Positions 1 through 29,014 of a stretch of 29,014 nt of DNA are shown piece after piece. Source of the DNA: a virus; the IMG/VR virus record IMGVR_UViG_3300020438_000193, positions 1-29,014 of that record; one strand, 5' to 3'. The notes beneath the pieces were generated by a model. It made no database searches. It saw nothing but the letters and a program-made list of their open reading frames with translations, and was not told where the DNA came from. Every line of letters starts with the position of its first letter. Positions within the stretch are counted from its first letter, which is position 1. A program made the position numbers and the translations under genes.

Positions 1-458
1 ATTTTATAAACAAAGTAAAGAAAACAGATTTATCTAAGTTTTCAAATAAGAAAAAGGAATTATCTAAAGTAGCTTTATCTGTAATTAGTAGGATAGATAC
101 AAATAGGGACTGGCTAGATAGTGCTTATGGTGTAGCTTCTTATTACGCTTACGAACGCTGGGACGAAATTATACAAGAAATACAAGATATGCAATTTGAA
201 ATAAGTAAAGAAGTAGATAACGTATATGTAAATAGTGAAGCTGGGGGCTTAGACGAAGTAGCTTCTGAAATGCGTGAAGACTTACAGCAAATTGAAAACG
301 CTGCAGACGAACTAGGAGTTTCACCTACGGAATTATTAGACGACTACGACGAACTTTCTGATATGGTAAATAACGCAGACGAAACTTATAACGAATATGT
401 AGACAAATACCGTGAAGTAGTAGATACTGCAGGCTGGCTACCTGACTTTAGTAGGTAG
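1..458 (+). CDS. Acidic tandem-family protein, 5' end outside window
   Basis: The reading frame is open from base 3 to the TAG at 456-458, so the start lies before the window. The first visible residues (FINKVKKTDLSKF) match the N-terminus of the gene at 28683 (YINKVKTSKIKKF), which makes this the fourth member of the family at 27734, 28120 and 28683. After a basic N-terminal tag of about 20 residues the body is acidic, probably helical, and rich in Glu, Asp and Tyr. Near the C-terminus it has the family motif ELGVSPTELLDDYDEL, which matches similar stretches in the paralogs. An internal Met at 189 is not the start, because the family tag lies upstream of it. The gene sits between the prohead protease and the scaffold gene. 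Function is unknown; an internal head or assembly protein is my inference. Confidence 0.8.
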   Translation, partial: FINKVKKTDLSKFSNKKKELSKVALSVISRIDTNRDWLDSAYGVASYYAYERWDEIIQEIQDMQFEISKEVDNVYVNSEAGGLDEVASEMREDLQQIENAADELGVSPTELLDDYDELSDMVNNADETYNEYVDKYREVVDTAGWLPDFSR

Positions 459-482
459 AAAATCAAATAAGAGTATAACAAT

Positions 483-499
483 TTCTATTATATAATAAC
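483..499 (+). promoter_or_regulatory. Putative phage promoter, copy with short leader
   Basis: TTCTATTATATAATAAC carries the same 11-base core as the copies at 3055, 15763 and 17456. Here the last three bases are AAC instead of ATG, and the start codon comes 15 bases later at 514. If the core is a -10-type element, this copy gives a short leader while the others would give leaderless transcripts. AATCAAATAA lies 22 bases before the element, and the same decamer lies 21 bases before the copy at 27101. Confidence 0.55.
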
Positions 500-513
500 A
501 AAAACATTTTAAA

Positions 514-1236
514 ATGAATTTAAAAAATCAAATTAGAGAAGCTTTAGGACTTTCTAAAGAAGTAAAGCTTGAAGCACAAGCAAAGTTAGCAGACGGGACT
601 ATTGTAGTTTCTGATACTGATTTTGAAGCTGGGGCAAATATTATGATCTTAGCTGAAGACGGCACTACAATGCCTTTACCAGTCGGCGAATACGAGCTAG
701 AAGACGGCACTGGTTTATCTGTAACTGAAGAAGGGGTAATTGCTGAAATTTACGAAACTGAAGAAGAAGAAGTAGACGCAGGTAAAGATAAAGACGAATA
801 CGAAGAAGAAGAAGCACCAGCTGAAGACGTAGCTGAAGAAGCTGTTACTGAAGTAGTAGAAGAAGTAGTAAGTGCAACTGACGAAATTGCAGCAGCTATT
901 GACGAAGCTACTGGTGAAGAAGTAACACCTGAAATTGCGCAACAAGCAGCTGAAATAGCTGTAGCTGTAGTAGAAGAAAAAGCTGAAGAAGTAGCTTTAT
1001 CTAAAGAAATGCGAACTGTTTTATCTATTATGAGAAAAGAACTTGACGCAATAAAAGAAACTAAAAAGGTTAAGCCAGTAAGAAAGTCTTTTAAAAAGGC
1101 TAAACCAGCTGCTAAACCAGTTCAAAGTAAAAAATTCTCTAGTAAGAAAAGAAAGTCAGTTATGGAAGAACTTTCAGCTACTGAATATAAAGCTTTAACA
1201 ACGAAAGAAAGATACCTATTTAACTTAGGTAAATAA
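514..1236 (+). CDS. Scaffold-like acidic protein
   Basis: 240 residues directly upstream of the major capsid gene. The N-terminal part (residues 1-85) is mixed and beta-rich, with an LPVGEYELEDG segment that I associate with pre-capsid proteins of Bacteroidota phages. Residues about 85-165 are very acidic, full of Glu, Ala and Val, and probably helical. The C-terminal 80 residues are strongly basic (many KK, KR and KS). An acidic helical body with a basic tail just before the capsid gene is the usual plan of a scaffolding protein, whose basic end touches the coat protein. The start at 514 follows an A-rich leader (aaaacattttaaaatg). It could instead be a capsid accessory protein that stays in the head. 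Family assignment is from pattern and position only. Confidence 0.65.
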   Translation: MNLKNQIREALGLSKEVKLEAQAKLADGTIVVSDTDFEAGANIMILAEDGTTMPLPVGEYELEDGTGLSVTEEGVIAEIYETEEEEVDAGKDKDEYEEEEAPAEDVAEEAVTEVVEEVVSATDEIAAAIDEATGEEVTPEIAQQAAEIAVAVVEEKAEEVALSKEMRTVLSIMRKELDAIKETKKVKPVRKSFKKAKPAAKPVQSKKFSSKKRKSVMEELSATEYKALTTKERYLFNLGK

Positions 1237-1271
1237 TATAACAATAATAATAACTAAAAAAAATTTAAAAA

Positions 1272-2180
1272 ATGGGATTTTCAATTACTTCTAATTTTAA
1301 GGGCGATCATGCTGGGCAGTATATTTCTGCAGCCTTAAAATCAGCAAAGACTTTAGACTACTTAACAGTCTTAGAAAACGTGAAATACAAAAGAAATATT
1401 ACAAAAGTAGTAGGTGCTACTTTAGTAAGAAATGCTACTTGTGATTTTACAGATAGTGGAACTTTAACTATGAGCGAGAAAGTTTTAACGCCAAAAAATT
1501 TACAAATAAATGTAGATTTATGTAAAGGTGATTTACTTTCTGACTGGCAAGCTTTACAAATGACTGCAGGAGCTAATAACAGTGGTATGAGTTCTGACTT
1601 TTCAGCTTTTGTAATGAGCCACTTAGCAGAGCAAATAGCAAATTCAACTGAAACTTCATGCTGGACTGGAGCTGCTGCGAATAACGGTGAGTTTGAAGGG
1701 TTTTTAACGCCTACAACTGGTGCGTTCTTAGTAGACACAGTAACTACTGGTTCAGTTTCAGGAGCTTTAACAGCTGCTAATATTATAGCAAACCTACAAA
1801 CTGCAGTAGATACAATACAAGCTAACGTATATGCAAAAGCTAATGAAGACTTATATATTTTCTTAAACCCTAAGAACTACAGATTTTATATTTCTGCAAT
1901 TTCTACTTTAGGTTATGTAAATGCTTACAATATGCAAGGTGATTATATACCTATGTTTAATGGAATTAAAATTGCCGTTGTAGGTGGTATGAACGACAAC
2001 GAAATCGTTGTAGGTGAAAAAAGTAATATGTTTTTTGGAACTGATTTACTTTCAGATAGCACTACTATTTCTATGCTTGATATGGCTAAGCTTGACGGCT
2101 CGGACAATTTAAGAGTAGTTTGTAAGTATTCTGCAGGAGTTCAAACTGGAGTAGCTTCAGATTTAACTTGGATAAACTAA
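1272..2180 (+). CDS. Major capsid protein
   Basis: 302 residues, of typical size for an HK97-fold coat protein without a long delta domain. Segments such as LYIFLNPKNYRFYIS (about 194-208), VVGGMNDNEIVVGEKSNMFFGTDLLSD (about 235-261, several sub-blocks) and the N-terminal TSNFKGDHAGQYISAAL fit coat proteins I know from Bacteroidota siphophages. The GTDLLSD block near the end is the most telling. It lies between the scaffold-like gene and the tube-like gene, the usual place. The start follows a leader that is nearly all A and T with no Shine-Dalgarno sequence, as expected in this host group. No cleavage site was recognised. I am confident of the role and less so of any named family. Confidence 0.87.
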   Translation: MGFSITSNFKGDHAGQYISAALKSAKTLDYLTVLENVKYKRNITKVVGATLVRNATCDFTDSGTLTMSEKVLTPKNLQINVDLCKGDLLSDWQALQMTAGANNSGMSSDFSAFVMSHLAEQIANSTETSCWTGAAANNGEFEGFLTPTTGAFLVDTVTTGSVSGALTAANIIANLQTAVDTIQANVYAKANEDLYIFLNPKNYRFYISAISTLGYVNAYNMQGDYIPMFNGIKIAVVGGMNDNEIVVGEKSNMFFGTDLLSDSTTISMLDMAKLDGSDNLRVVCKYSAGVQTGVASDLTWIN

Positions 2181-2206
2181 TATTAACTTAAAAAAATAAA
2201 GAAACT

Positions 2207-2770
2207 ATGGCATGTAATTTAACAAAAGGAAGAAATATTAGCTGCAGGGACACGGTGGCTGGAGTTAAGAGTATCTTTTTAGCTCAACATGACGAATTAA
2301 CTTCTTACGTTGCTGCTAGTGGTTCTTTAACAGATTTTGATTTAGGCGGTTCTGACGATATATATAAATACTTATTAAAACGTGGAACGGCGAGCGTTAC
2401 CGAAACGGTAAATGCTAACAGCGAAAACGGTAGTATTTTCTATTCGCCTTCAGTTAATATAAAGCTTCACAAATTGACTGCTGCAGATCAAAACGAGTTA
2501 AAACTATTAGCTGCACAAAGACTAATAATTTTTGTAGAATTAAACGAATTAAACGCAGCGGGTAAAAACGTTATATTAGCTTGCGGTTTAGATAATGGTA
2601 TGGAACTATCAGCTGGGACTAACAGTTCAGGGGCTGGTTTAGGTGATATGAACGGTTACGACTGGACTTTTGAAAGTCAAGAACCTTCACCTATGCAAAC
2701 GGTTGCAGACTATACTACGACACCGCTAGACAATTCAGCGTTTACGTTTAATAGTATAATCACTTCGTAA
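2207..2770 (+). CDS. Probable major tail (tube) protein
   Basis: 187 residues, beta-rich, 26 bases after the capsid gene and the last gene before the terminator at 2817. The middle (ADQNELKLLAAQRLIIFVEL) and the block after it (VILACGLDNGMELSAGTN, then GDMNGYDWTFES and EPSPM) follow a pattern I know from tube-type proteins of Bacteroidota phages: a strand of hydrophobic residues, a glycine turn, then a GxxxGY-T-T-xExxP ending. Two Cys (residues 3 and 13) lie in the N-terminal arm. Sharing a transcript with the capsid protein fits a product needed in many copies. A head decoration protein is the main alternative. Confidence 0.6.
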   Translation: MACNLTKGRNISCRDTVAGVKSIFLAQHDELTSYVAASGSLTDFDLGGSDDIYKYLLKRGTASVTETVNANSENGSIFYSPSVNIKLHKLTAADQNELKLLAAQRLIIFVELNELNAAGKNVILACGLDNGMELSAGTNSSGAGLGDMNGYDWTFESQEPSPMQTVADYTTTPLDNSAFTFNSIITS

Positions 2771-2816
2771 AACTTCAAACCTGAAAAGGTTTTGTTTTCA
2801 TAAATTCAATTTAAAG

Positions 2817-2843
2817 AAGGGTGGCGTAAGCTACCCTTTTTTT
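2817..2843 (+). terminator. Intrinsic terminator after capsid/tube genes
   Basis: A 9-bp stem (AAGGGTGGC with GCTACCCTT, one G-T pair) with a GTAA loop is followed by an unbroken T run to 2843. It lies 46 bases after the stop at 2770 and marks the end of the scaffold-capsid-tube unit. Confidence 0.9.
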
Positions 2844-2863
2844 ATAACTTAAAATAAATTAAA

Positions 2864-3028
2864 ATGTATAAATTAAAAGACGAATACAAAGGGGTTACAG
2901 TTAGTAAAACTGGGCGTATAATTATTTTAGACAATGTAAAATCTAGTGAAGTAGAACTTTTAGGTATAGAACAATTTTTTACGAAGTCAAAGAAAAAAAG
3001 TAAAACACCACCGCCGAGTAAGTTATAA
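2864..3028 (+). CDS. Small hypothetical protein (54 aa)
   Basis: 54 residues starting MYKLKDEYKGVTVSKTGRII and ending in a basic, proline-containing tail (KSKKKSKTPPPSKL). It starts 20 bases after the terminator, at an ATG with an A-rich leader (aaataaattaaaatg), and ends 26 bases before the promoter-like element at 3055. The body could form a small beta unit (VTVSKTGRIIILDN) and a short helix. Small proteins of this shape (YK-G-hydrophobic strand-K-G-R) lie near capsid genes in related phages, often in the head-completion region, but no function is established. Supported by codon use like its neighbours, its start context and the compact layout. Confidence 0.7.
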   Translation: MYKLKDEYKGVTVSKTGRIIILDNVKSSEVELLGIEQFFTKSKKKSKTPPPSKL

Positions 3029-3054
3029 ACAGAATAAAAATAAAAAGTAAGTTT

Positions 3055-3071
3055 TTCTATTATATTATATG
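3055..3071 (+). promoter_or_regulatory. Putative phage promoter overlapping start codon
   Basis: TTCTATTATATTATATG ends exactly on the ATG of the gene at 3069. It has the same 11-base core and spacing as the copies at 15763, 17456 and 27101. It would restart transcription after the terminator at 2817. Confidence 0.6.
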
Positions 3072-3551
3072 ATACATGGAATTTACGGCAGTTCATACTA
3101 TTATTTTTATCTTACTTTAGAAGATCAGCGTATAAATACAGCGGTGAGTAAAAACAATATATGGCACCTATTCAAATTTACGCACGACTTAACTAAAGAA
3201 GTAAAATATGCTTATGGAGCTAAAAACGTGCATAACGATAGGTATGTAAAATACATTTTTGCGCATAATACTACTGAAAATATTTTTACTGGTTTTATAG
3301 ATTTTAAACCACACGGCTACTGGAAATACGAAGTTTACGAAATTAGCTGGCTAGGAACGTTAGCGGTTAATGATACGAACGCACCAAATAGTGAAACTGA
3401 AGTTTTAGCAGTTCATAACGACAACGGCGTAGTTCAGGGTAAAGTAGAAGAAGGTAAATTGCTAATTTCAGAAACGGCAGGTTCGGAGCAAGTATCTTAT
3501 ACAAAATATACAGAAAACGACAATACAAGTAATTATTTATATACAAATTAA
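3069..3551 (+). CDS. Hypothetical virion-type protein
   Basis: 160 residues, rich in Tyr, Asn and Thr, with alternating beta-type segments. The N-terminus begins MIHGIYGSSYYYFYLTLEDQ. The middle is aromatic (FIDFKPHGYWKYEVYEISW, about residues 76-94). The C-terminal 60 residues are Glu/Thr/Val-rich with a repeated 'EV-AV-DNGVVQGKVEEGKL' feel, as in small beta-structured virion proteins. No catalytic motif is visible. Its start codon forms the end of the promoter-like element, so its mRNA may have no leader. It opens a three-gene group (3069, 3564, 3846) of likely surface proteins. Function is not known; decoration or fibre attachment is possible. Confidence 0.7.
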   Translation: MIHGIYGSSYYYFYLTLEDQRINTAVSKNNIWHLFKFTHDLTKEVKYAYGAKNVHNDRYVKYIFAHNTTENIFTGFIDFKPHGYWKYEVYEISWLGTLAVNDTNAPNSETEVLAVHNDNGVVQGKVEEGKLLISETAGSEQVSYTKYTENDNTSNYLYTN

Positions 3552-3563
3552 AAAAATTAAAAA

Positions 3564-3845
3564 ATGAGTTTAATAGACAATACAAGCACGTTATTGCGTG
3601 AGCAACTAGGTAAAGGTTCGGGAGTGGTTTTTACAACTGCAGCACAAACTGGTAAAGACTGGTATGCGGTTCATTTTGTTACTGAAAGCGTAGTAAGTGC
3701 TATAACTATGACTTATCACACTGGCGAAGCTGCTTTGCATACTACTATACCAGCTGGAACGGTTATATTCGGGCACATAACAGCTATTACTATGACTTCA
3801 GGGGTGGCTATAGGTTACGCTGAAACTGACGGTAAAGCAGGATAA
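3564..3845 (+). CDS. Small beta-rich virion-type protein
   Basis: 93 residues. The second half (IPAGTVIFGHITAITMTSGVAIGY) has the alternating strand-turn pattern I associate with small beta-sandwich proteins in Bacteroidota and other phages, often found beside fibre or decoration genes. It starts 12 bases after the gene at 3069 behind an A-rich leader (aaaaaattaaaaaatg). The next gene starts at the base after its stop codon, which suggests coupled translation. No enzyme motif, signal peptide or membrane segment was seen. A head decoration or fibre-associated role is an inference from fold pattern and context. Confidence 0.7.
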   Translation: MSLIDNTSTLLREQLGKGSGVVFTTAAQTGKDWYAVHFVTESVVSAITMTYHTGEAALHTTIPAGTVIFGHITAITMTSGVAIGYAETDGKAG

Positions 3846-4583
3846 ATGAAATTAGCTTTAAGCAATAATATAAAAAGTAGAGTAAACGCTGACTGGACGC
3901 CTGAAAAACTATCTAGTTTATTACACTGGTATAAATGCGACACTGGTATATCAACTTATGCGCATAGCACAAGTGGTAATAGAATTGTTACCGAGTGGCA
4001 AGATCAAAAAGGAACTAATAACTTAATAGATACCGCTACGCCAGCCGATACAGCTGGTTATAATACAGCTCACCCTAGATACGATACTTCTACAAAAGAA
4101 GTGGTTTTTGATCATGGAGGCGATCAGTTAGACTTAACAGAACACTTATCACTAGGAACTTTTGCTATTTTTGTAAGAATTGAGTTTGACGATACTACTT
4201 TTGGTGATTTTCTTTTTGAAGACGAAGCGGGTAACAATTTCTTAAAAGTTCAAACTGCTACAGAACTAAGAGTAAAAATAAGTGGTAATAGACACGATTT
4301 TACTATAGACGGTGAACTAGCACAAGATACTCGTTATGTTATAGGTTATCAGCGTGAAGACACTGCTTTAACTGCTGACGATATAATTTCTTGTTATGTA
4401 AATAATACAGCTGTTACACAAAGCGGTTCGGGTGACGGCACACAAGCAATAACAGATACTTTAGATTTAGAAAAAGTAGGTGATCCGTCAAATCAAACTA
4501 GAATAAAAGAAATAGTTATATGTAATAATGCTTTAAGTGGTGCTGATAGGACAAGCTTATTTAACTATTTATATAATTTATAA
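3846..4583 (+). CDS. LamG/concanavalin-like domain protein
   Basis: 245 residues. The N-terminal third has the signature of phage-borne LamG-like lectin domains: LLHWYKCDTGIS (about 25-36), then WQDQKGTNNLID (about 51-62), corresponding to the common 'W-D...W-D-SGN' pattern. The rest alternates short strands (GTFAIFVRIEF, DFLFEDEAGN, ELRVKISGN) and ends in a helix (LSGADRTSLFNYLYNL), which is also usual in this fold. Such domains bind sugars or other surfaces, so this may be a receptor-binding or head-surface adhesion protein. It starts immediately after the stop of the previous gene and ends 23 bases before the portal start. No catalytic residues were recognised, so binding is more likely than hydrolysis. 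Confidence 0.65.
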   Translation: MKLALSNNIKSRVNADWTPEKLSSLLHWYKCDTGISTYAHSTSGNRIVTEWQDQKGTNNLIDTATPADTAGYNTAHPRYDTSTKEVVFDHGGDQLDLTEHLSLGTFAIFVRIEFDDTTFGDFLFEDEAGNNFLKVQTATELRVKISGNRHDFTIDGELAQDTRYVIGYQREDTALTADDIISCYVNNTAVTQSGSGDGTQAITDTLDLEKVGDPSNQTRIKEIVICNNALSGADRTSLFNYLYNL

Positions 4584-4591
4584 TATATTTG
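4584..4591 (+). promoter_or_regulatory. Possible host-type -7 box before portal
   Basis: TATATTTG fits the Bacteroidota -7 consensus TAnnTTTG and lies 15 bases before the portal ATG. I see no TTG at the expected -33 distance, so the call is weak. Confidence 0.35.
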
Positions 4592-4606: not shown

Positions 4607-6607
4607 ATGAGTAAAAGAAAAACACCAGTAAATAAAGAAACAAAAGTTTTAAGTATAAATTTAGAAACGCAAACGGCACCTAAGGTTCAAGAAGTTCGGG
4701 GGCGTGATTATATAGAATATGGTTCTGAAGGGTGGGCAAACCTTTACCCGCAATTTTTAATTGATTTATATTATAATAGTTCTACGCATGCGGCAATTAT
4801 AAATACTACTGCCGATATGATAGCTGGCGAAGATTTAATTTGTGAAGACGAAGAAAACGATAATATAGAGCTAAAATCATTTTTAAGTAACGCAAACGGT
4901 AAAGAAAGTCTGCACGATATAATAAAGAAAATAAGTTTAGATTTTAAACTTCAGGGTGGTTTTGCTTTAAATATAATATGGAACGCAGAACGAACTAAGA
5001 TAGCTGAAATTTACCATGTGCCAGTAGAACGTTTAAGAGTAGGAATACCGAACGAAATGGGCGTAGTAGATACTTTTCATATATGTAGCGACTGGAGCGA
5101 CACAAGACAAAACCCACCGCAAGAAGTGCCAGCTTTTGATTTAAACGATAGGACTTCACCAAGTCAAATATTATATTCAGGGACTTATTCGCCTAATATG
5201 GATATTTACCATACGCCTGACTATGTAGCTGGGTGCAACTGGGCACTTATAGATCAAAAAGTTTCAGAGTTTCACCTATCAAATATAGAAAATTCGTTTT
5301 CAGGAAGTTATTTTATTAGCTTTAATAATGGAGTGCCTTCGCAAGAAGAACGAATGCAAATAGAAAATAGTATTGTAGAAAAATTTGTAGGGGCTAAAGC
5401 TGCAGGTAAATTTGTTTTAACGTTTAGCGACGATAAAAATAGAGAGCCTAGCATAACACCTATAAACCCGCCAGATTTAGATAAACAATATACCACTTTA
5501 CAGTCACTTTTATTGACTAACATTTTAACGTCACATAGAGTAGTTAGCCCCCTTCTTTTTGGAATAAGAGATACTTCAGGGCTGGGTAATAACGCAAACG
5601 AAATGAGCGAAGCCTTTGATCTGTATTTAAACAGTGTTATAAAACCCTACCAGAACCACATATTAAACGTTTTAAAGAAGCTTCTTACTGTAAATGGTAT
5701 AAACTACCCTTTGACGTTTATACAGAATAAACCACTTACAAATAGGTTTGATACCGATACACTTTTAAGCGTCATGACGCAAGAAGAAATACGTTCAGAA
5801 CTCGGCTTAGAACCCTTAAAAAAAGAAGAAGAAGTAGTAGACGACTTTGAAAAAGAACTACCTACTTTTGATACTAAAGAAGAAGCGATAGCAGAAGCAA
5901 AAAAACTAGGTTGTAGTGGTTACCATACGCATACAGAAAACGGTAAAACTTTATATATGCCGTGCGAAAATCATGAGCAAATAACAAGTTTAACTGAACA
6001 ATTAAATTTTAAAGATTATATACAAAAATACGGTGAAGAAATACCTGACGACTGGGAACTTATAGACGTAGAAAATGCAGAAGGCGAGCACCCTGAATTT
6101 AACTTTGAAGATACTTTAAACGAACTTTGTAATACAGAACTATCTAAAATAGAACTAGAAGAAGAAAGCGAACTTGACGGCTTGGGTGGTAAAAGGGGTT
6201 TTGTTTCAGGTTATTTTAGGGTTCGTTATAGATATACGCACGACGATAGCCAAGTAAATGAAACTGGCACGAGTAGGGACTTTTGCATAGATTTAATGAG
6301 TGCCGATAAAATATATACTAAAGAAGTTATAGAAGGTATGTTTAATGAAAATAGTTCTTTTGGAGCTGGTAAAAAGGGCGGTGGTTATGATAAATTTGAG
6401 TTTAAAGGCGGAGCCTATTGCGAACACTACTGGCAGCGTTTAATTTTCAGGACTTCTATAGGGCGTGGTATGAAACGAGATTTAGACGATAGTATGCTTG
6501 TATCTACAGCTAAAGCAAGAAGTGAAGGGTTTTACCCTAAAGCAATAAGGGACGAGTGGAAAACGCCTAAAGATATGAAAAATAGGGGTTCACTAAAAAA
6601 CAAATAA
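4607..6607 (+). CDS. Portal protein with long C-terminal extension
   Basis: 666 residues. Residues about 35-400 look like a phage portal: an N-terminal region that threads past YPQFLIDLYYNSSTHAAIIN, a mixed clip/stem region, then TNILTSHRVVSPLLFGI (about 304-320), GLGNNANEMSEAFDLY and a long helix SVIKPYQNHILNVLKKLL. The portal is the ring at the DNA-entry vertex. After an acidic linker (about 405-425) comes GCSGYHTHTENGKTLYMPC (435-453), a Cys/His cluster. A second domain follows at about 535-620 with C560, C605, H607 and W609 (CEHYWQR). I recall similar C-terminal modules on other Bacteroidota phage head proteins but know no assigned function. Typical portals are 400-550 residues, so the extension is unusual. 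The start follows tataaaaatg. Confidence 0.85.
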   Translation: MSKRKTPVNKETKVLSINLETQTAPKVQEVRGRDYIEYGSEGWANLYPQFLIDLYYNSSTHAAIINTTADMIAGEDLICEDEENDNIELKSFLSNANGKESLHDIIKKISLDFKLQGGFALNIIWNAERTKIAEIYHVPVERLRVGIPNEMGVVDTFHICSDWSDTRQNPPQEVPAFDLNDRTSPSQILYSGTYSPNMDIYHTPDYVAGCNWALIDQKVSEFHLSNIENSFSGSYFISFNNGVPSQEERMQIENSIVEKFVGAKAAGKFVLTFSDDKNREPSITPINPPDLDKQYTTLQSLLLTNILTSHRVVSPLLFGIRDTSGLGNNANEMSEAFDLYLNSVIKPYQNHILNVLKKLLTVNGINYPLTFIQNKPLTNRFDTDTLLSVMTQEEIRSELGLEPLKKEEEVVDDFEKELPTFDTKEEAIAEAKKLGCSGYHTHTENGKTLYMPCENHEQITSLTEQLNFKDYIQKYGEEIPDDWELIDVENAEGEHPEFNFEDTLNELCNTELSKIELEEESELDGLGGKRGFVSGYFRVRYRYTHDDSQVNETGTSRDFCIDLMSADKIYTKEVIEGMFNENSSFGAGKKGGGYDKFEFKGGAYCEHYWQRLIFRTSIGRGMKRDLDDSMLVSTAKARSEGFYPKAIRDEWKTPKDMKNRGSLKNK

Positions 6608-10879: not shown

Positions 10880-11580
10880 AACACTTATTAAGTAGTAGTG
10901 CATATTTAGTAGTAAATAAACAACTAGCAAGGCAGGTAGGGCTGAAGGCGGTAGTTCTACTTGCCGATCTTATTAGTAAAGAAAACTATTTTTTAATAAA
11001 TGGAACTTTAAAAGAAGGCTGGTTTTTTAATACTTCAAAAAATATAGAACGTGATACAACTTTAACTAATTACCAGCAAAAGAAAGCTATAAAGAAATTA
11101 GAAGAAATAGGTTTTTTAGAAACTGAACTTAAAGGAATGCCAGCAACCCTACATTTTAAGATACTTGAAAACAAGATTTCAACTTACTTGAATACAAGTT
11201 TTAAAGAAACTTCAAAACAAGATTTAAAGAAACTTGAAACAAATAAGAATAAAGAAATAATAATAACTAATAATAGTATATATAAACCTATTCAAAAAAG
11301 AGAAGCTGTTTTTGGTTTAGAAGTTCTTAAAATAGGTGAAGAAATAGAAGCTCCTTATAAAGACAAGCAAGACTTTTTAGATTACTGGACTGAACCTAAC
11401 CCTACAAAAACTAAAATGCGTTTTGAATTACAGAAAACTTTTTGTATTAAACGTAGACTAAAGACTTGGTTAAAACGAAGCAAACAATATAATAATAACG
11501 GAACTTCTAAAATAGATAAACAATTAGATAGCTACCAAAAAGCAATACAAATAGTAAAAAATAATTATGGAACTGAATAA
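10876..11580 (+). CDS. Replication protein with winged-helix N-terminus
   Basis: 234 residues. The N-terminal part (about 8-97) has the layout of phage replication initiators or helicase loaders: AVVLLADLISKENYF, then GWFFNTSKNIERDTTLTNYQ (recognition region) and a wing ending in LHFKILENK. A Lys/Asn-rich linker (about 105-145) follows. The C-terminal part (about 160-195) contains FLDYWTEPNPTKTKMRFEL and a nearby RRLKTWLKR, a block I know from replisome-organiser proteins of low-GC and Bacteroidota phages. It probably binds the origin and recruits the host helicase. The start ATG overlaps the stop of the DnaA-like gene (ATGA), and its own end overlaps the methyltransferase start. Confidence 0.75.
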   Translation: MKHLLSSSAYLVVNKQLARQVGLKAVVLLADLISKENYFLINGTLKEGWFFNTSKNIERDTTLTNYQQKKAIKKLEEIGFLETELKGMPATLHFKILENKISTYLNTSFKETSKQDLKKLETNKNKEIIITNNSIYKPIQKREAVFGLEVLKIGEEIEAPYKDKQDFLDYWTEPNPTKTKMRFELQKTFCIKRRLKTWLKRSKQYNNNGTSKIDKQLDSYQKAIQIVKNNYGTE

Positions 11581-12292
11581 AATATATAACGAAAATTGTT
11601 TAGATACTATGAAACGTATGCCTGACGACTTCGTAGATATGGTAATTACTTCACCACCTTATAACATAGGTAAAGCAAGGGCTAATACTAACAACCCTGA
11701 CTTAGTTTATGATACATATTCAGACGATTTAGAAATAGACGAATACTTTAAACAAACTAAAATATGGCTTGACGAACTTTTACGAGTATCTAAACACTAT
11801 GTATTTTGGAATATAGGCGAATACGCAGGCTGTAAAGGAATAGCAGGTTTTATAATGAATACATATAAAGAAAACCTAAAAGAAAATTTTATATGGATAA
11901 AGCCGAACCCGAACCCAGTAGGTAGGAATATAGTTTGTAATAGTTACGAATACATATTTTGTTTAGTTAAAGAAAATGCTGATAAAAGAAAATACGATTA
12001 TAATAATTTCGGTGATAATATGATAAAGAATTATATAATAAAACCAGTAAATAATAATAAAGACAACGGCGGGCATGGTTATGCTTTTGGCGAGTGGTTA
12101 CCTAAATATTTTATACATAACTTTAGTAAAGAAGGTGATACTATTTACGACTGTTTTATGGGCTCGGGCACTACAGCTGTAGCTTCGCACGTTTTAGATC
12201 GTAAATTTATAGGTTCTGAAATATCTGAAAAGTATGTAGGTATTGCGAACAAAAGATTAAAACCATACTTAACACAAACTAAACTATTTTGA
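11567..12292 (+). CDS. DNA methyltransferase, beta class (N4/N6)
   Basis: 241 residues, a complete small amino-methyltransferase. The catalytic motif IV, TSPPYNIG (28-35), comes first and the SAM-binding motif I, DCFMGSGTTAVAS (195-207), comes near the end, which defines the beta class. SPPY is common in N4-cytosine enzymes and some N6-adenine enzymes. The middle (about 90-160) should carry target recognition. No restriction partner of classical type lies beside it, so it probably modifies phage DNA to escape host restriction. A nuclease-fold protein lies one gene on (12663). Its start overlaps the previous gene by 14 bases; its stop overlaps the TTG start of the next. Confidence 0.92.
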   Translation: MELNKIYNENCLDTMKRMPDDFVDMVITSPPYNIGKARANTNNPDLVYDTYSDDLEIDEYFKQTKIWLDELLRVSKHYVFWNIGEYAGCKGIAGFIMNTYKENLKENFIWIKPNPNPVGRNIVCNSYEYIFCLVKENADKRKYDYNNFGDNMIKNYIIKPVNNNKDNGGHGYAFGEWLPKYFIHNFSKEGDTIYDCFMGSGTTAVASHVLDRKFIGSEISEKYVGIANKRLKPYLTQTKLF

Positions 12293-12666
12293 AAATAAAA
12301 GAATACGAAATACAAGAACTTACGCTTAAATGCGTAGAACTAATAAGTAAAACTTTAGTAGAACTAGGACAAGTTAAAGACGAAAAACATATTGTTATTT
12401 TAAGTTCAAGTTTAGCTAATGATTTAAAAGAAGACTTTAAGAACTTATACTTTGAAGACGTGCAACAAGCTTTTAGGCAAGGAGTTCGTAATACTGATAA
12501 ATTTGTTTTAAACGTTCAGAACTATTATTTATGGATAAAAGCACACCGTCAGTTAATATGGAACGAAGCAAGTAAAGAACCTGAACGTCAAGACAAAAGA
12601 CTTGTATATAGAAACACAAAAGGAAAGCTGGAGCATATATCTAAAAAATTAAACGTGCCTAAATGA
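12289..12666 (+). CDS. Hypothetical protein, TTG start
   Basis: 125 residues. There is no in-frame ATG before or near the beginning, and none inside the frame. The TTG at 12289 forms TTGA with the methyltransferase stop, the usual overlap geometry here, so TTG is very likely the real start. The protein is helical and charged: an N-terminal helix (about 3-25), a second region NLYFEDVQQAFRQGVR and a motif NYYLWIKAHRQLIWNEA (about 77-93) that I have seen in other Bacteroidota phage replication regions. The C-terminus is basic. The stop overlaps the next ATG. No function can be named; its neighbours suggest a DNA-metabolism role. Confidence 0.7.
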   Translation: MKIKEYEIQELTLKCVELISKTLVELGQVKDEKHIVILSSSLANDLKEDFKNLYFEDVQQAFRQGVRNTDKFVLNVQNYYLWIKAHRQLIWNEASKEPERQDKRLVYRNTKGKLEHISKKLNVPK

Positions 12667-13142
12667 TTATAAATTACCCTGAAGTTTTATATAATATAGC
12701 AAAAGAAATATCTACAGTAAGAACCGAAAGTATTAAAAAAATGGTTCTAGGTAATAAACGAAGTGAAAAGGAATTTAAAGATCATAATACAATAGGTGTT
12801 TTAGGTGAACTAATAGCCCAGCACTATTTTATAGAGCAAGGAGCACACTATAAAGCTACGCAAATATTAAGTAATAAACCTTTAATAGAAGCTGATATAT
12901 TTGTAAACACTATGTTTGATACAAGAAAAATAGACGTAAAGACTTTAAAGAGTTCACACCGTTATTTAATGGTAAACCAGTTCGTTCATGAAAACCCACT
13001 TAAAGACGTAAACGAATATATGTTTATACAAATCATAAAAAAAGGGCAATGTAAAATATGGTTTTATTCGCATGAAGACGTAGATAAATGGAATATAGTA
13101 GAACAAACTTATAGCAAAGTATATGCCAAAAAAATCAGTTAG
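12663..13142 (+). CDS. PD-(D/E)XK-type nuclease-like protein
   Basis: 159 residues. The pattern fits the PD-(D/E)XK nuclease fold: E49 in a helix (GVLGELIAQHYF, 45-56), D78 (EADIF) and DVK at 91-93 (RKIDVKTL), followed by a strand and helix. Spacing from D78 to D91-x-K93 is as expected for the metal site. Family members include restriction enzymes, resolvases and recombination nucleases. The gene lies one gene after the DNA methyltransferase and immediately before the NinG-like gene, so it may act in recombination, host DNA breakdown or site-specific cutting. Overlaps at both ends tie it to the operon. The catalytic residues look intact; the substrate is unknown. Confidence 0.65.
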   Translation: MIINYPEVLYNIAKEISTVRTESIKKMVLGNKRSEKEFKDHNTIGVLGELIAQHYFIEQGAHYKATQILSNKPLIEADIFVNTMFDTRKIDVKTLKSSHRYLMVNQFVHENPLKDVNEYMFIQIIKKGQCKIWFYSHEDVDKWNIVEQTYSKVYAKKIS

Positions 13143-13515
13143 TAAATTAAAAAAAGAAATAGATAAATACTTTAGTCTTTATATAAGATTACGATACGCA
13201 AGCAAAGACGGTATGGTAAAATGTTTCACTTGTAATAAAACTTCACACTATAAAAAAGGTATGCAGGCTGGGCACTTTCAAAGTAGAAGGTTTTTACCTA
13301 CACGCTGGAACGAAGACAACGTGCAAGTTCAGTGCGTTAAATGTAATATGTTTTCGCAAGGCGAACAGTATAAGTTTTCACTGAATTTAGGTGAAGACAA
13401 AAGTAAGGAGTTAGAAGCTTTAGCCCGATCAACTGTAAAGTATATGCGGCACGAATACGAAGAACTATTAGAACGTTATAAACAAGAAGTTAAGAAACTA
13501 ACAAACGATAGTTAA
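13123..13515 (+). CDS. ninG: NinG/Rap-like recombination protein
   Basis: 130 residues, shorter than lambda NinG (about 200). The core matches the NinG pattern: CFTC (34-37), then QAGHFQSRR (48-56), TRWNEDNVQVQC (60-71) and CVKC (71-74). C34, C37, C71 and C74 would hold zinc, and H51 with nearby residues forms an HNH-like centre. In lambda, Rap/NinG is a structure-specific endonuclease that helps recombination. It overlaps the upstream nuclease gene by 20 bases and is the last gene of the early operon before a promoter-like element. The N-terminal 30 residues are basic and helical. Confidence 0.82.
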   Translation: MPKKSVSKLKKEIDKYFSLYIRLRYASKDGMVKCFTCNKTSHYKKGMQAGHFQSRRFLPTRWNEDNVQVQCVKCNMFSQGEQYKFSLNLGEDKSKELEALARSTVKYMRHEYEELLERYKQEVKKLTNDS

Positions 13516-15779: not shown

Positions 15780-16139
15780 GAAAACGAACAAAAACGAACA
15801 ACCGAAAGTAAAAAAAGGATATTGAAAGCTTTAGAAGGTAGCCTAGGTATAGTAAGCAAGGCTTGTGAAGAAAGCGAAATATCAAGAACTCAATTCTATA
15901 AATGGTGTAAAGACGATAAAGATTTTGCTACAACTGTAGACGAACTACAGAACGTAGTTTTAGATTTTGCTGAAAGCACTTTACATAAACTAATAGCTGA
16001 CGGTAATACAGCAGCTACTATATTTTTCTTAAAGACAAAAGGCAAGAAACGTGGGTTTATAGAAAAACAAGAACTTGATCTTACAAGTGGTGACGAACCT
16101 ATTAAAATAAACATAAATATAAAGGGCGTTGAATATTGA
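15777..16139 (+). CDS. terS: Terminase small subunit
   Basis: 120 residues. The N-terminal region (about 10-45) is a helix-turn-helix typical of small terminase subunits: KKRILKALEGSLGIVSKACE, then ISRTQFYKWCKDD. A helical core follows with ADGNTAATIFFLKTKGKKRG (about 87-106), a block common in these proteins. The subunit recognises phage DNA and starts packaging. It directly precedes and overlaps the large subunit gene by 11 bases. The start codon lies at the end of a promoter-like element, so the terminase pair seems to be a separate transcription unit. Confidence 0.88.
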   Translation: MENEQKRTTESKKRILKALEGSLGIVSKACEESEISRTQFYKWCKDDKDFATTVDELQNVVLDFAESTLHKLIADGNTAATIFFLKTKGKKRGFIEKQELDLTSGDEPIKININIKGVEY

Positions 16140-17439
16140 TCCTATATTTACTAGCACACAAGAAACCGCAATAGAGTATTTATTTGACGATACTACTAAC
16201 GACGTTCTTTTTGGTGGGGCTGCTGGTGGTGGTAAAAGCTTTGTAGGTTGTAGCTGGCTTATTATAATGGCTTTACGTTACCCGAAGACTAGGTATTTAA
16301 TAGGACGCTCAAAACTTGATACTCTTAAAAAGACAACCTTTAATACCTTTACTGAAGTTTGTTCTAACTGGAGTTTGTTAGCTGGTAAACACTATACGTT
16401 TAATGCTTCTACTAATATCATATCGTTTTATAATGGTTCTGAAATAATACTTAAAGATTTATTTCTTTACCCTTCAGATCGTAATTTTGATAGTTTAGGT
16501 TCTTTAGAAATTACAGCAGCCTTTATAGACGAAGCAAACCAAATAACAGAAAAGGCTAAGAATATAGTAGCAAGTAGAATAAGATACAAGCTAGACGAAT
16601 ACGGTATAATACCCAAAATGTTATTGACTTGTAACCCTTCAAAAAACTGGTGTTATACTGAATATTACCGCCCAGCTAAAGCAGGAACTTTACCACCACA
16701 CCGTAAATTTATACAGTCTTTAGTAGACGACAACCAGTATATAAGTAAACACTATAAAGGGCAACTAGAAAAATTAGATAGGTTAAGTAAAGAACGTTTA
16801 CTATATGGTAACTGGGAATACGACGCAAGCGATACTAACTTAATAAACTATGATAGTATATTAAACCTATTTACTCAAAAAGGTAAAGAAGGTGAAATGT
16901 ATATAACATGCGACGTTGCAAGGTTCGGTAAAGACAAAACTGTAATAATGGTATTTAGTGGACTTCAAGTTATTAAGATCAGAACTTTTGATAAAAGTAG
17001 TGTAGTAGAAGTAGCTGACGAAATAAGAAGCTTACAGTCACAATACAACGTAAACCTACATAACATAATTGTAGACGAAGACGGCGTAGGGGGCGGCTGC
17101 AAGGATATACTACGCTGTAAGGGTTTTCAAAATAACAGCAAACCACTAAAAAACGAAAACTATCAGAACCTTAAAACCCAGTGTTATTATAAACTATCTG
17201 ATTTAGTAAATAAAGGGCAAGTAGGTATAGACACAAAAGATATAAATATAAGACAATACATAATTGAAGAACTGGAGCAAGTCTGCATGCACCACCCCGA
17301 CAAAGATAATAAACTACAGATAGTGCCTAAAGATACTATTAAAGCAATACTAGGACGTTCGCCAGATTTTAGCGACGCTTTAGCTATGCGGTGTTATTAT
17401 GAAATAGATAGTAACTATGGGCGCTATTTCGTTCAATAA
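16129..17439 (+). CDS. terL: Terminase large subunit (packaging ATPase/nuclease)
   Basis: 436 residues, a complete TerL. ATPase half: Walker A FGGAAGGGKS (28-37), Walker B AAFIDEA (130-136, catalytic E135) and the coupling motif TCNPS (167-171). Nuclease half, RNase H-like: D262 in CDVARFG, D316 in VDEDG and D413/D416 in PDFSDA. It pumps DNA into the prohead and cuts the concatemer. The start is a TTG at 16129 overlapping the small subunit gene; no ATG lies before the conserved N-terminus, and TTG also starts the gene at 12289. The short gap after it carries the promoter-like element for the tail unit. Confidence 0.95.
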   Translation: MNIDPIFTSTQETAIEYLFDDTTNDVLFGGAAGGGKSFVGCSWLIIMALRYPKTRYLIGRSKLDTLKKTTFNTFTEVCSNWSLLAGKHYTFNASTNIISFYNGSEIILKDLFLYPSDRNFDSLGSLEITAAFIDEANQITEKAKNIVASRIRYKLDEYGIIPKMLLTCNPSKNWCYTEYYRPAKAGTLPPHRKFIQSLVDDNQYISKHYKGQLEKLDRLSKERLLYGNWEYDASDTNLINYDSILNLFTQKGKEGEMYITCDVARFGKDKTVIMVFSGLQVIKIRTFDKSSVVEVADEIRSLQSQYNVNLHNIIVDEDGVGGGCKDILRCKGFQNNSKPLKNENYQNLKTQCYYKLSDLVNKGQVGIDTKDINIRQYIIEELEQVCMHHPDKDNKLQIVPKDTIKAILGRSPDFSDALAMRCYYEIDSNYGRYFVQ

Positions 17440-24821: not shown

Positions 24822-24825
24822 AAAT

Positions 24826-27078
24826 ATGAGCGAAGAAATATATGCAAAACTGAATTTAGACGCCGAGCAAGCAGGGCGTTCTTTAAACGATATAAATAAA
24901 GAATTAAAAGAAACTAACGACGCACTAAAGCAAGTGGCTGTAGGTGGTAAAAACTTTGATAAACTTACTAAACGAGTAAAGGAATTAAAAGCAGAACTTA
25001 AAGGTATAAGGGGTGCTGCAGAAAGTTCAGCTGTAAGTATGCGAGATATTACAAACACCGTTTCAGGTGGTTTTGCTGTAGCTACTGGTGCTATGGCTTT
25101 GCTAGGCACGAAAAGTGAAAAATTAGCTGAAGTTCAAAAAAGAGTTCAAGCTGCAATTGCAATAGCTGTAGGGGTTCGTAATTTACAAGAAAGTAAGCTT
25201 AATATGACTATGATTAAGCAAGGAGTTATAACAGCTAAAAACAAAGTTATAACTTTAGCTATGGCAGGAGCACAAAAAGTAGTAGCTGGAACTACTAAAC
25301 TTATGGGCATAGCTGCAAATACAAGTAGTAAAGGTTTTAAGGCTTTAAAAATTGCTATTGCCGCTACTGGTATAGGTTTAATTGTAGTAGCTTTAGGTTT
25401 GATAGTAGCATACTGGGAAGATATAATAGGTTTAATGGGCTTCGGAACTTCGGAAGCTGAAAAACAATTGCAACTTACTACAGCTAAAAAAGACGCAGCA
25501 ATGGAAGAACTTGAAAGCGTAGAAGGTTCTACAAATCAAATGAAGCTGCAAGGTAAAAGTCAAAAAGAAATTTTACAATTAAAAATAAAAGCAGTAGACG
25601 CAGCAATTCAAGCTTCAGAAGTAGAAATGGCTGCACAAAGGGCAAAAATAAAAGCCGATATACAGTCTGCAAAACGAAATAAAGCTATACTTACTGGTAT
25701 GCTTTTAATGATTACAGCTCCTATAGACGCTTTAATTTACGCATATAATTTATTACCAGGTGTAGACGATATAGCTTACGCAAGTGAAAGTATTGCAGGT
25801 ATGTTTTTTGATCCTGACGACGTAGCGGCTGAAGGTGAAGCGGCTTTAAAAGAACAAGAAAAAGCTTTAGCTTCACTTAAAGAGAAAAAAGCGGGCTTAC
25901 AATTATCAGTTCAAGAAATGGATAAAGCAAATTCAGGAAAGTCAAGAGAGCAACGTAAAAAAGAAGCTGCAGAAATGCGTAAGTTAGAAGAAGAACTAGC
26001 TTTACAGAAACTGGAACTTGACGAAGAACGAGCTGTATTAAAATTAGAGCACCAGTTAGCATACGAACTAGAAGCTTTAGAAGGCAAGAAAAATGCTAAA
26101 GAGCAAGAACTTTTAATAACAAAAAAATATAATCAGCTAATAGAAGACGCAGAAAAGGAACTAGCAGCTAAACGAAAAGAAATTGCCGAGAAAACAGCTA
26201 AACAAGTAGAAAAGTTTTTAACTGATAGTTTAGCAGAATACGACGAAGTATATAACGAAATTAAAGATTTACAACGTGAAGTAGGCGACGAAATACTAGC
26301 TAATAACGGGCAACACTTAAAAGATAAACATACGCAAGAACTAAAAGATTTTGACTTAGCGCATGTAAGGCGTAGGGCTGACTTAGCGCAAAAAATTCAA
26401 GCTTTACAAGACGAAATAGACGTTTCAGAAGACGCTACTGAACTAAAGAAAGCACAACAAATTTTACAATTTGAAATGGCTGACTTAGATATAGAAAATA
26501 ATAAGTTAAGAAACTTAGTTATTAAACGACAAAATCAGGAACTAGCAAAAGAAGGTGAAGACGTGCAACAAGCTACTATAGACGCTTCGCAACAAATGTT
26601 AGACGCAATAAATGCAAATATAGACGCAAGTATTGCAAGGAATACGTCTAAAATGGAAGCTGAAATAGAAGCAACGGGTGCAACTGGAGCAGCTAAAGAA
26701 GCTATAGAAGAAAAATATGCAAAAAAAGAAAAGAAGTTACAAGCAAGGAAGAAAGCAATAAGTGCTTCACAAGCAATAATAAATACTATGGTAGGAGCTA
26801 CTAAAGCGTTGGAGCTAGGTTTTCCCGTAGGAACTATAGCAGCAGCCGCAACAGTAGCAGCTGGTTTAGCTAATGTTAGACAAATATACGCACAAGACGT
26901 AGGGGGTGGTAAGGGTGGTTCTACGCCAGCAAGTGCACCTACGCCTAGGGGTGCAAATCAAGCCTTTACTTTAGGTGGGGCACAAAAAGACGAAGCAATA
27001 CGTGCTTACGTTGTAACTGACGAAGTAACAAATAGTCAAGATCAGCTAGCGAATATAAGACGTAGAAGCTCAATTTAA
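24826..27078 (+). CDS. Tape measure protein
   Basis: 750 residues, the longest helical protein here. It begins with a charged coiled coil (INKELKETNDALKQVAVGG, KELKAELKG), then a hydrophobic stretch (IAIAATGIGLIVVALGLIVA, about 176-195) that could insert in a membrane, then a long Lys/Glu/Gln coiled-coil region (about 380-660), and a second hydrophobic Ala/Gly/Val segment near 665-690 (GTIAAAATVAAGLANVRQIY). This plan is standard for Bacteroidota tape measures. By the usual rule of about 0.15 nm per residue the tail would be near 110 nm. It ends the tail unit; the next gene has its own promoter-like element. Confidence 0.85.
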   Translation: MSEEIYAKLNLDAEQAGRSLNDINKELKETNDALKQVAVGGKNFDKLTKRVKELKAELKGIRGAAESSAVSMRDITNTVSGGFAVATGAMALLGTKSEKLAEVQKRVQAAIAIAVGVRNLQESKLNMTMIKQGVITAKNKVITLAMAGAQKVVAGTTKLMGIAANTSSKGFKALKIAIAATGIGLIVVALGLIVAYWEDIIGLMGFGTSEAEKQLQLTTAKKDAAMEELESVEGSTNQMKLQGKSQKEILQLKIKAVDAAIQASEVEMAAQRAKIKADIQSAKRNKAILTGMLLMITAPIDALIYAYNLLPGVDDIAYASESIAGMFFDPDDVAAEGEAALKEQEKALASLKEKKAGLQLSVQEMDKANSGKSREQRKKEAAEMRKLEEELALQKLELDEERAVLKLEHQLAYELEALEGKKNAKEQELLITKKYNQLIEDAEKELAAKRKEIAEKTAKQVEKFLTDSLAEYDEVYNEIKDLQREVGDEILANNGQHLKDKHTQELKDFDLAHVRRRADLAQKIQALQDEIDVSEDATELKKAQQILQFEMADLDIENNKLRNLVIKRQNQELAKEGEDVQQATIDASQQMLDAINANIDASIARNTSKMEAEIEATGATGAAKEAIEEKYAKKEKKLQARKKAISASQAIINTMVGATKALELGFPVGTIAAAATVAAGLANVRQIYAQDVGGGKGGSTPASAPTPRGANQAFTLGGAQKDEAIRAYVVTDEVTNSQDQLANIRRRSSI

Positions 27079-27100
27079 AAATCAAATAATAACTAAAAAT

Positions 27101-27117
27101 ATCTATTATATTATATG
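27101..27117 (+). promoter_or_regulatory. Putative phage promoter at start of head unit
   Basis: ATCTATTATATTATATG ends on the ATG of the protease gene. It has the same core and spacing as the other copies, with an A instead of T at the first base. AATCAAATAA lies 21 bases before it, as before the copy at 483. Confidence 0.6.
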
Positions 27118-27741
27118 GGCAAGAAAAAGAAAAAGTATAGAAAAAGCACTAAAATTGTAGAACTAATAATTGCCGACGACGCAGAAAGTTTAGCAATTGA
27201 CGCAATTTCTTTAGTGAGTGCTCCAGCTATTGAAGAAAACATGGTTTATTTTAATAAGGCTAAAAACAATTTAACTTTATCTAAAATAGACGAAGACAAA
27301 AAAACAATTATAAGCCCAGCACTTATACCGAACAAGCAAATTTTTAGATACGACGCTAACACCGATCAAGAATATTACGTTTATTTTTCTAAAGATACTG
27401 TAAAACAAGCTTCAGAATTATATTTAAAACATAATAATCACCATAAAGCAACTTTAGAGCACGCTGAACGTATTGCAGGAATTTTAACAGTAGAAAGCTG
27501 GATAAAGGCAGGTGACGAAGACAAATCTAATTTATATGGATATAAGGGTTTACCGATAGGAACGTGGTTTGTTTCTATGAAAGTAGACAACCCTGACGTA
27601 TGGAAATTAGTTAAAGAAAATAAAATACTCGGGTTAAGTATAGAAGGTTATTTTGTGGATCGTGTAGAAAGTTTACAAAAAAAGAATACCTTTACAAACG
27701 ATAAAATACTAACTGCACTTAAAGAATTATTAAATGAATAA
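27115..27741 (+). CDS. Prohead protease, XkdF-like (peptidase S78_2 type)
   Basis: 208 residues. The N-terminal block DAISLVSAPAIEENMVYF (29-46) and the following core match the XkdF-like protease family: KATLEHAERIAGILTVESWI (111-130) with H116, then GTWFVSMKVDNPDVWKLVKE (149-168) and ILGLSIEGYF (171-180) with S175. H116 and S175 are the likely catalytic residues of the serine protease. It would cleave scaffold and head proteins during maturation. It begins with a run of Lys (MGKKKKKYRKSTK). Its stop overlaps the start of the first tandem-family gene (ATGAATAA), so protease and family members are translated together. Proteases of this type normally lie near the capsid gene, here about 2 kb away round the map. 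Confidence 0.85.
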   Translation: MGKKKKKYRKSTKIVELIIADDAESLAIDAISLVSAPAIEENMVYFNKAKNNLTLSKIDEDKKTIISPALIPNKQIFRYDANTDQEYYVYFSKDTVKQASELYLKHNNHHKATLEHAERIAGILTVESWIKAGDEDKSNLYGYKGLPIGTWFVSMKVDNPDVWKLVKENKILGLSIEGYFVDRVESLQKKNTFTNDKILTALKELLNE

Positions 27742-28114
27742 GAAATTAGAATACTTAAATAAAGTAAATACACCAAAAAAATTAACTTTAGGTAAAATAG
27801 ATAATTTATTAGACAATATAAGGCAAGATTTATTTGACGGCACACAAAAAGCAATAGGGCACGGGCTAGACGCAATACAAGACTTAGACGCTTGTAAAAA
27901 TCAAAGCGAAGAAAATAGAAGTATTTATGTAAATTATGTAGCGGAGCTACAAGAAATTTTGGCAACATTTGACGAACTAGGTTTAAGTGAAAGCGACGTG
28001 CCAGATTTGCAAGAAGTAGTAGAAGCGTTAAATGAGTTCGGCGACGTAGAAGCACGGTTTGATAATTTAGATAATGTAATAAATGATTTAGTAGAATTAT
28101 TAAGAGATAATTAA
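27734..28114 (+). CDS. Acidic tandem-family protein 1
   Basis: 126 residues. The N-terminal tag MNKKLEYLNKVNTPKKLTL is almost the same as that of the gene at 28120 and like those at 28683 and 1. The body is acidic and helical. The motif DELGLSESDVPDLQEVVEAL (about 80-99) recurs in each paralog as ELG-x(3)-P-(D/S)-x-x-Q/E. It lies directly after the prohead protease with an overlapping start. A conserved short basic tag on divergent acidic bodies recalls T4 internal head proteins, which enter the prohead with a targeting tag that a protease removes. That role is my inference; the sequence only shows the tag, the paralogy and the location. Confidence 0.8.
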   Translation: MNKKLEYLNKVNTPKKLTLGKIDNLLDNIRQDLFDGTQKAIGHGLDAIQDLDACKNQSEENRSIYVNYVAELQEILATFDELGLSESDVPDLQEVVEALNEFGDVEARFDNLDNVINDLVELLRDN

Positions 28115-28119
28115 AAACT

Positions 28120-28587
28120 ATGAATAAAAAATTAGAATACTTAAAGAAGGTAGCGAAGCCTAAAAAATTAGACTTAAATTCTATTTCTGATTTACAACAA
28201 AATATAAGTTCGTTAAAAGATTTGCACGAAGCTGCTGAAACTGATAATAACAATTTATTTGACGGTTATCAAGATTACTTTAATAGTTTAGATAGTCTAA
28301 TAATGGATAGCGCTTTTATTAAAGGTATGAGTGAAAAAACAGAAAACGCGCACGAAGAAATATACCACTTAATAGAAGACACGAAAGAAAAAATTGATTA
28401 CTTTATAAGTCAATTTGACGAACTAGGAATTGAACCAACGCCTGACTTTCAAAATTTATTAGAAACATTTTTTGATTTACATAACGCAGCTACAGAAGCT
28501 TATGCTGAGTTTGATAGTTATAACAATATAAGGGACGAAGCCGAAGAAGTATATAATACAACTCAAAATAAGAACTTAAATTTTTAA
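28120..28587 (+). CDS. Acidic tandem-family protein 2
   Basis: 155 residues. The tag MNKKLEYLKKVAKPKKLDL differs from the first paralog at few places, and DNA identity at the start is high (atgaataaraaattagaatac). The body then diverges: a Asn/Asp-rich helix set with a repeat of Leu/Asp pairs (NLFDGYQDYFNSLDSLI) and the shared motif DELGIEPTPDFQNLLETF (about 100-117). It starts 5 bases after the previous gene. The C-terminus is Asn-rich and short of basic residues. Codon use is like the rest of the genome, so this looks like duplication inside the phage followed by divergence. Confidence 0.8.
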   Translation: MNKKLEYLKKVAKPKKLDLNSISDLQQNISSLKDLHEAAETDNNNLFDGYQDYFNSLDSLIMDSAFIKGMSEKTENAHEEIYHLIEDTKEKIDYFISQFDELGIEPTPDFQNLLETFFDLHNAATEAYAEFDSYNNIRDEAEEVYNTTQNKNLNF

Positions 28588-28588
28588 T

Positions 28589-28678
28589 ATGAAAAAAATA
28601 ATTTGCGATTTAATTTGCACAATAACACTAGGAATAATTTGCTTAAACTTATGCGGTAATAACTGCTGTAAAAAATAA
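28589..28678 (+). CDS. Tiny Cys-rich hydrophobic peptide (29 aa)
   Basis: 29 residues, MKKIICDLICTITLGIICLN then LCGNNCCKK. A basic start, a hydrophobic core of about 17 residues and six Cys suggest a secreted or membrane peptide or a very small lipoprotein-like product, though LNLCG is a poor lipobox. It fills the gap between two tandem-family genes, starting 1 base after one and ending 4 bases before the next. In a genome this compact a gap of 95 bases without a gene would be unusual, which supports it. No homologue is known to me. Confidence 0.45.
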   Translation: MKKIICDLICTITLGIICLNLCGNNCCKK

Positions 28679-28682
28679 TAAA

Positions 28683-29014
28683 ATGAATAAAAAAGATTAC
28701 ATAAACAAAGTAAAGACTTCTAAAATTAAGAAGTTTAGTATTGAAAGTAAAATAGACTTAAATAAGTTTGACGAAATAGAAGAAAGTTTAAATCATGCAG
28801 ACTATTTAGTAAATGAAGCTTTTGTAGAAGCTATGGATATAGGCGACGAAAAATATATGCTAGGGCGTGATATTATGCGTTTTGATTTTAACGACGCTTT
28901 AGGTGAAGCTGAATATCAAATTGACGAAATAAAATCTACACTTGACGGGCTAGGCGTAGATTACCCTTCAGAACTGCAAAACGTTATAGATAGGTTAAAA
29001 GAGTTAGAAGAAGA
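28683..29014 (+). CDS. Acidic tandem-family protein 3, 3' end outside window
   Basis: At least 110 residues, cut by the window end. The tag MNKKDYINKVKTSKIKKFSI is the closest match to the partial gene at the window start (FINKVKKTDLSKFS). The body is acidic and helical, with LVNEAFVEAMDIGDEKYML and the shared motif DGLGVDYPSELQNVIDRL (about 88-105). Judging by the paralogs, 15-50 further residues are expected. Joining the window end to its start would continue this frame for 12 codons to a stop but would leave the gene at the window start without an ATG, so the two ends are probably not directly contiguous. Confidence 0.8.
   Translation, partial: MNKKDYINKVKTSKIKKFSIESKIDLNKFDEIEESLNHADYLVNEAFVEAMDIGDEKYMLGRDIMRFDFNDALGEAEYQIDEIKSTLDGLGVDYPSELQNVIDRLKELEE

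Follow-up and report, generated by a model that had tools for sequence, protein, structure and literature searches.

A Bacteroidota phage contig without GATG/CATC and with at least sixteen further depleted motifs, probably reflecting elimination of host restriction sites

The stretch of DNA analysed here (the window) is a whole viral contig of 29,014 nucleotides with a G+C content of 33%, whose genes all have the same orientation. Its products include a terminase, a portal protein, a probable capsid protein, a tape measure protein and an endolysin, together with NinG and a DnaA-like protein (Table 1), and the contig is that of a tailed phage of Bacteroidota. Its terminase shares 50–53% identity with the terminases of Flavobacterium phage 11b and Cellulophaga phage phi10:1, and its gene order is similar to that of Nonlabens (Persicivirga) phage P12024S, an Inhavirus (L309), to whose proteins both the capsid and the tail proteins of the window are distantly similar. 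The hosts are most likely Flavobacteriaceae. No tRNA was found in the window, and no integrase was recognised among the part of its proteins that was scanned.

Table 1. Features of the window and their closest matches
Feature	Position	Strand	Remarks
Whole viral contig (G000, virus record)	1..29014	.	Without GATG/CATC; 16 further motifs at 0–2 copies
Probable major capsid protein	1272..2180	+	Distantly similar to Nonlabens phage P12024S protein; 85% to L102
Portal protein	4607..6607	+	85% to L102 contig
Orphan N6/N4 DNA methyltransferase	11567..12292	+	PF01555, E 1.7e-33; TSPPYN motif
159-aa ORF	12663..13142	+	Residues resemble PD-(D/E)XK core by eye
NinG/Rap-like junction-specific nuclease	13123..13515	+	Structure-specific family
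Terminase large subunit	16129..17439	+	95% to L001, 94% to L002, 92% to L003, 72–75% to many others

An earlier note, written from the letters of the sequence, had described the tetramer GATG and its complement CATC as completely missing and, indeed, the string count over the whole window is zero for both. As the note had also observed, ATG is never preceded by G (T 192, A 164, C 44, G 0), nor ATC by C (T 62, G 41, A 34, C 0), and CATG and GATC are retained in 44 and 41 copies, respectively. Likewise, aspartate ahead of a codon starting with G is written 174 times as GAC and never as GAT, although GAT occurs 194, 69 and 34 times ahead of codons starting with A, T and C. In the codon-shuffled null that the note had put forward as a check, synonymous codons were permuted across all genes, preserving the proteins and the codon use and treating codons as exchangeable between genes. 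It yielded 136.4 ± 7.8 GATG/CATC sites in coding DNA, compared to the zero observed, and the lowest of 200 shuffles contained 111. When all the other purged motifs described below were forbidden in the null, the expectation was still 111 (minimum 97). Expectations over the codon-shuffled nulls thus range from 111 to 138 in coding DNA, bearing out both the hundred or more sites that the note had predicted and its proposal that selection acts at the DNA level. The word is expected and yet missing in each of the three codon phases and on either strand; the approximately 2.3 kb outside the called genes likewise lack it. A longer target around GATG was ruled out because each of its 5-mer contexts has a zero count; the target is the tetramer itself, as the note had held. 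GATG/CATC is the most abundant word removed from the phage.

The earlier note had recognised this motif only, but GATG is accompanied by at least 16 other purged motifs. When motifs were sought one after another, each being forbidden in the null once accepted, about 20 were returned at 0 to 15% of expectation in the window. Seventeen of these were re-tested singly with all the others forbidden, and in every case the observed count fell under every null sample (Table 2). Besides GATG, the canonical tetramers GTAC, GACC/GGTC, TCGA, GGCC and CCGG are wholly absent, CCTC/GAGG is reduced to two copies, and the absent words also include several 5- and 6-mers. Other short palindromes (GATC, CATG, AGCT, ACGT and TTAA) are found at near-normal levels. 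For every asymmetric purged motif, the loss extends to both orientations. The Biopython REBASE list contains eight of the 17, and GATG, the site of MhoVII, raises to nine those with a known enzyme; the remaining eight, all asymmetric, have none in the list used, which is a subset of REBASE, so that some of them may have known enzymes.

Table 2. Observed and expected counts of the 17 motifs re-tested in the window
Motif	Observed/expected	Known enzyme
GATG	0/111	MhoVII
GTAC	0/96	Biopython REBASE list
CCTC	2/54	Biopython REBASE list
GGTC	0/52	None in list
GANTC	0/45	Biopython REBASE list
CCAAT	0/36	None in list
TCGA	0/31	Biopython REBASE list
CCTGT	0/30	None in list
GGATT	1/27	None in list
GACAT	0/26	None in list
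ATTAAT	0/21	Biopython REBASE list
TGACA	0/20	None in list
GATTG	0/19	None in list
GGAGA	0/18	None in list
GACAG	0/17	Biopython REBASE list
CCGG	0/14	Biopython REBASE list
GGCC	0/13	Biopython REBASE list

Relatives of the phage were sought with the terminase large subunit and the probable major capsid protein as queries; they are metagenomic fragments without metadata, on which genes were called by a simple longest-ORF rule. Phages whose terminase is 72–75% identical, and whose G+C content is the same as that of the window, typically carry about 85 GATG per 10 kb, and the four closest contigs (L001, L002, L003 and L102) carry about 0.5 to 18. The purge of GATG is common to L003 and L102, with one site each, while 22 of the 70 expected sites are kept in L001 and 5 of 19 in L002, despite their closer terminase (94–95%). 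The purged sets of these four contigs and the window overlap and yet differ: L001, for instance, has kept GTAC but lacks GGTC, TCGA, TGACA and GANTC. When the shared genes were compared codon by codon, none of the avoided-motif sites of the relatives was found to be kept by the window (0/53 for L102, 0/26 for L001, 0/34 for L002 and 0/23 for L003, counts that are not independent because the four contigs overlap in the genes compared), in contrast to other tetramers, kept at 51–63% at the same aligned codons. Of the L001 sites, 9 of 9 for GTAC and 4 of 5 for GATG were lost by synonymous change alone. This comparison with related phages, also suggested in the earlier note, shows the relatives' sites to be gone at aligned positions, mostly via synonymous changes. 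Additional, although not decisive, support for the purge comes from the dipeptides Met-Met and Trp-Met, which force GATG: none occurs in the window, L102 or L003, whose own residue frequencies predict about six. The sites remaining in L001 are mainly CGATG and TGATG, with AGATG still depleted (3/31), a pattern that would fit either waning avoidance or selection on a longer site.

The same motif search was run on 89 non-redundant related contigs. Most of their lineages purge small sets of their own, often GATC, CATG, TCGA, GANTC, ACTGG, GGTGA, CCGC or CATCC, and the recurring avoided sites include those of BsrI, HphI, FokI, AciI, MboII, HinfI and DdeI. Among these contigs, known enzyme sites (Biopython REBASE list) make up 65 of 185 avoided asymmetric 5-mers (35%, versus 6.4% of candidates), 12 of 44 avoided asymmetric 4-mers (versus 1.7%) and 86 of 86 avoided four-base palindromes (versus 83%). 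The highest motif count is that of the window (20 in this version of the test, the next contig having 13), partly because it is one of the longer contigs; per kb it ranks fourth. Two 13.5-kb pieces of the window gave 10 and 11 motifs, and pieces of relatives of similar length 0–12. Another heavy-avoider lineage, L152 and L154, purges GTAC, GAAGA, TTTAAA, GTTCA, TGACA, GGTGA, CCTTC and ACGT, and encodes a relative of the window's methyltransferase. Furthermore, CCAG/CTGG is entirely or almost entirely purged in 13 of the 89 contigs (for example, 0/71 in L042), ACAGC in 10 and CGTC in 8 (L042, L038, L286, L254, L170, L136 and others); since none of the three is in the enzyme list used, this suggests common undescribed specificities. 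GACC, ACAGG and TGACA are likewise recurrent words that the list lacks.

These observations can be integrated if a marine Bacteroidota tailed phage has eliminated the recognition sites of many host Type II restriction-modification systems, which we consider very probable. The window presents what restriction-site avoidance should leave behind: site counts significantly under a composition- and codon-aware expectation, avoided words that are recognition sites of restriction enzymes (9 of 17, with the enrichment found in the 89 contigs), and sites lost by synonymous substitution relative to close relatives. Elimination of host sites explains the short fixed words, the mixture of palindromic and Type IIS-like motifs, the differing sets of sister lineages and the match to known enzymes. 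In this model, restriction in the actual hosts would be the agent of the purge, and the hosts would carry a GATG-specific enzyme, which might resemble MhoVII or belong to a different Type IIS-like system with a 4-bp asymmetric site. Such an enzyme would cleave entering DNA at any GATG, and site loss, mostly synonymous, would render the phage DNA uncuttable. The purge of both orientations of every asymmetric motif is as for enzymes able to act at single sites. So many systems at once are, nevertheless, unusual for one host strain.

Alternatively, the motifs could be read by host defences of other kinds (BREX-like methylation, phosphorothioate-based Dnd/Ssp, Type IIG or Type III systems), an explanation that we regard as improbable. 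It would account for the several asymmetric 5-mers, typical of Type IIG, Type III and BREX-like methylation, and for the eight motifs without a listed Type II enzyme. However, GAAC/GTTC, a well-known phosphorothioate core, is over-represented in the window (267 copies versus 166 expected). Type III systems usually need two opposed sites, so that purging one orientation is enough, as in the strand-biased avoidance of T7-like phages, whereas both orientations are gone here for all asymmetric motifs; Type III avoidance was thus ruled out for these motifs. Moreover, Type I and IIG systems have been found to elicit no avoidance, and Type III very little (PMC6286503).

Of the two causes offered by the earlier note, escape from host restriction is the better supported; the other, self-exclusion from a phage nuclease that would degrade host DNA at GATG while the phage is spared by lacking the site, now seems very unlikely. 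The phage does encode a methyltransferase, a NinG-like nuclease and a possible PD-(D/E)XK ORF, but one or two nucleases cannot account for at least 17 unrelated motifs, nor for the overlapping but different sets purged by L003, L102, L001 and L002. NinG/Rap is a junction-specific family and, because the family is structure-specific, its member here is a poor candidate for motif-specific self-exclusion. The only candidate for a phage-encoded sequence-specific nuclease, and a weak one, is the product of the 159-aa ORF, which is 92% identical in L003 and gave no family match in our searches. As for the methyltransferase, whose nearest solved relatives are an N4-cytosine methyltransferase and CcrM, it was ruled out as the cause of the purge because its 74–85% identical relatives sit in phages that keep GATG. 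A compositional, codon-pair or mutation bias, or an assembly artefact, could be invoked given that the window is AT-rich and has all its genes on one strand, but it is hardly credible in view of the codon-aware nulls, the absence in all codon phases and outside genes, the GATG density of relatives of the same G+C content, and the complete loss at aligned sites. Practically no weight is given either to the avoidance of CRISPR protospacer-adjacent motifs: their depletion in phages has been reported (PMC4246573), but the complete loss of 17 motifs of 4–6 bases, many of them palindromic, far exceeds what escape from spacers needs, and known Type II sites are enriched among the avoided words.

Elimination of host restriction sites is itself a known strategy, of which the window is an extreme and striking case. 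In a survey of prokaryotic dsDNA viruses (Rusinov et al. 2018, PMC6286503), complete or nearly complete site elimination was reported for roughly one viral genome in ten, and avoidance was found almost only at orthodox Type II sites, the palindromic ones being tabulated in the main text of that survey. Its phage genomes resemble the window in having completely eliminated short Type II sites; the window differs in that at least 17 motifs, most of them asymmetric, are affected at once in 29 kb. P12024S, in the same test, purges GGCC and ACCGG only. A restriction-modification system acting at exactly GATG/CATC, MhoVII of Mycoplasma hominis, was experimentally proven in 2026; two adenine methyltransferases are fused in it, and its restriction enzyme cleaves the site only when it is unmethylated (PMC12898733). 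Its target is the same word that is purged in the window, and it represents the kind of enzyme that would create such pressure, not a part of the phage; however, it is known from mollicutes, not from marine Bacteroidota, and no homologous locus was found among the searched genomes of the host group. GATG/CATC forms part of the Type IIS sites of FokI/BtsCI (GGATG), SfaNI (GCATC) and BccI (CCATC), which some relatives avoid, but each enzyme would remove only one 5-base context, whereas in the window the tetramer is missing in every context. In the open-licence literature searched, no previous description of phages avoiding GATG was found. New aspects are how many motifs have been purged together, how large a proportion of them is asymmetric, and the eight words without an enzyme in the REBASE subset used; GATG as a target outside mollicutes would be new as well.

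More tentatively, and with somewhat less than even confidence, the purged words might reveal the repertoire of restriction systems in an uncultured population of marine hosts, comprising a GATG/CATC system outside mollicutes, at least eight undescribed asymmetric specificities (GGTC, CCAAT, CCTGT, TGACA, GGATT, GACAT, GGAGA and GATTG) and more than 15 systems acting on one phage lineage. The window shows that a small phage is able to erase many restriction targets together and that the erased words are statistically readable from metagenomic contigs. They provide testable predictions of restriction specificities in uncultured bacteria, among them a 4-base asymmetric specificity for which proof came only in 2026, as well as a route for matching phages to hosts via the methylome.

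Searches for the host and its enzymes were made in bacterial genomes. A nucleotide search with 19.9 kb against 397 Flavobacteriaceae genomes gave weak gene homologies only and no convincing protospacer, and the terminase relatives in bacterial genomes are distant (at most 54%). An AlwI-family search of 396 Flavobacteriales genomes yielded no YhdJ+D12 (MhoVII-type) locus: four genomes had matches above the cut-off, with no YhdJ+D12 pair in the stretches examined. Type IIS-like loci with paired methyltransferases do exist in Flavobacteriaceae/Flavobacteriales genomes (L347, which encodes two D12 enzymes, L350 and L355), but none of those recovered by the D12 and AlwI searches of the host group is assignable to GATG, specificity not being readable from sequence. 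In L350, from a Flavobacteriaceae genome, a DUF7226 protein (4998–6020) is encoded downstream of two D12 methyltransferases, and a similar-looking protein adjoins an AlwI-family enzyme in L353; DUF7226 proteins are possibly a restriction enzyme family.
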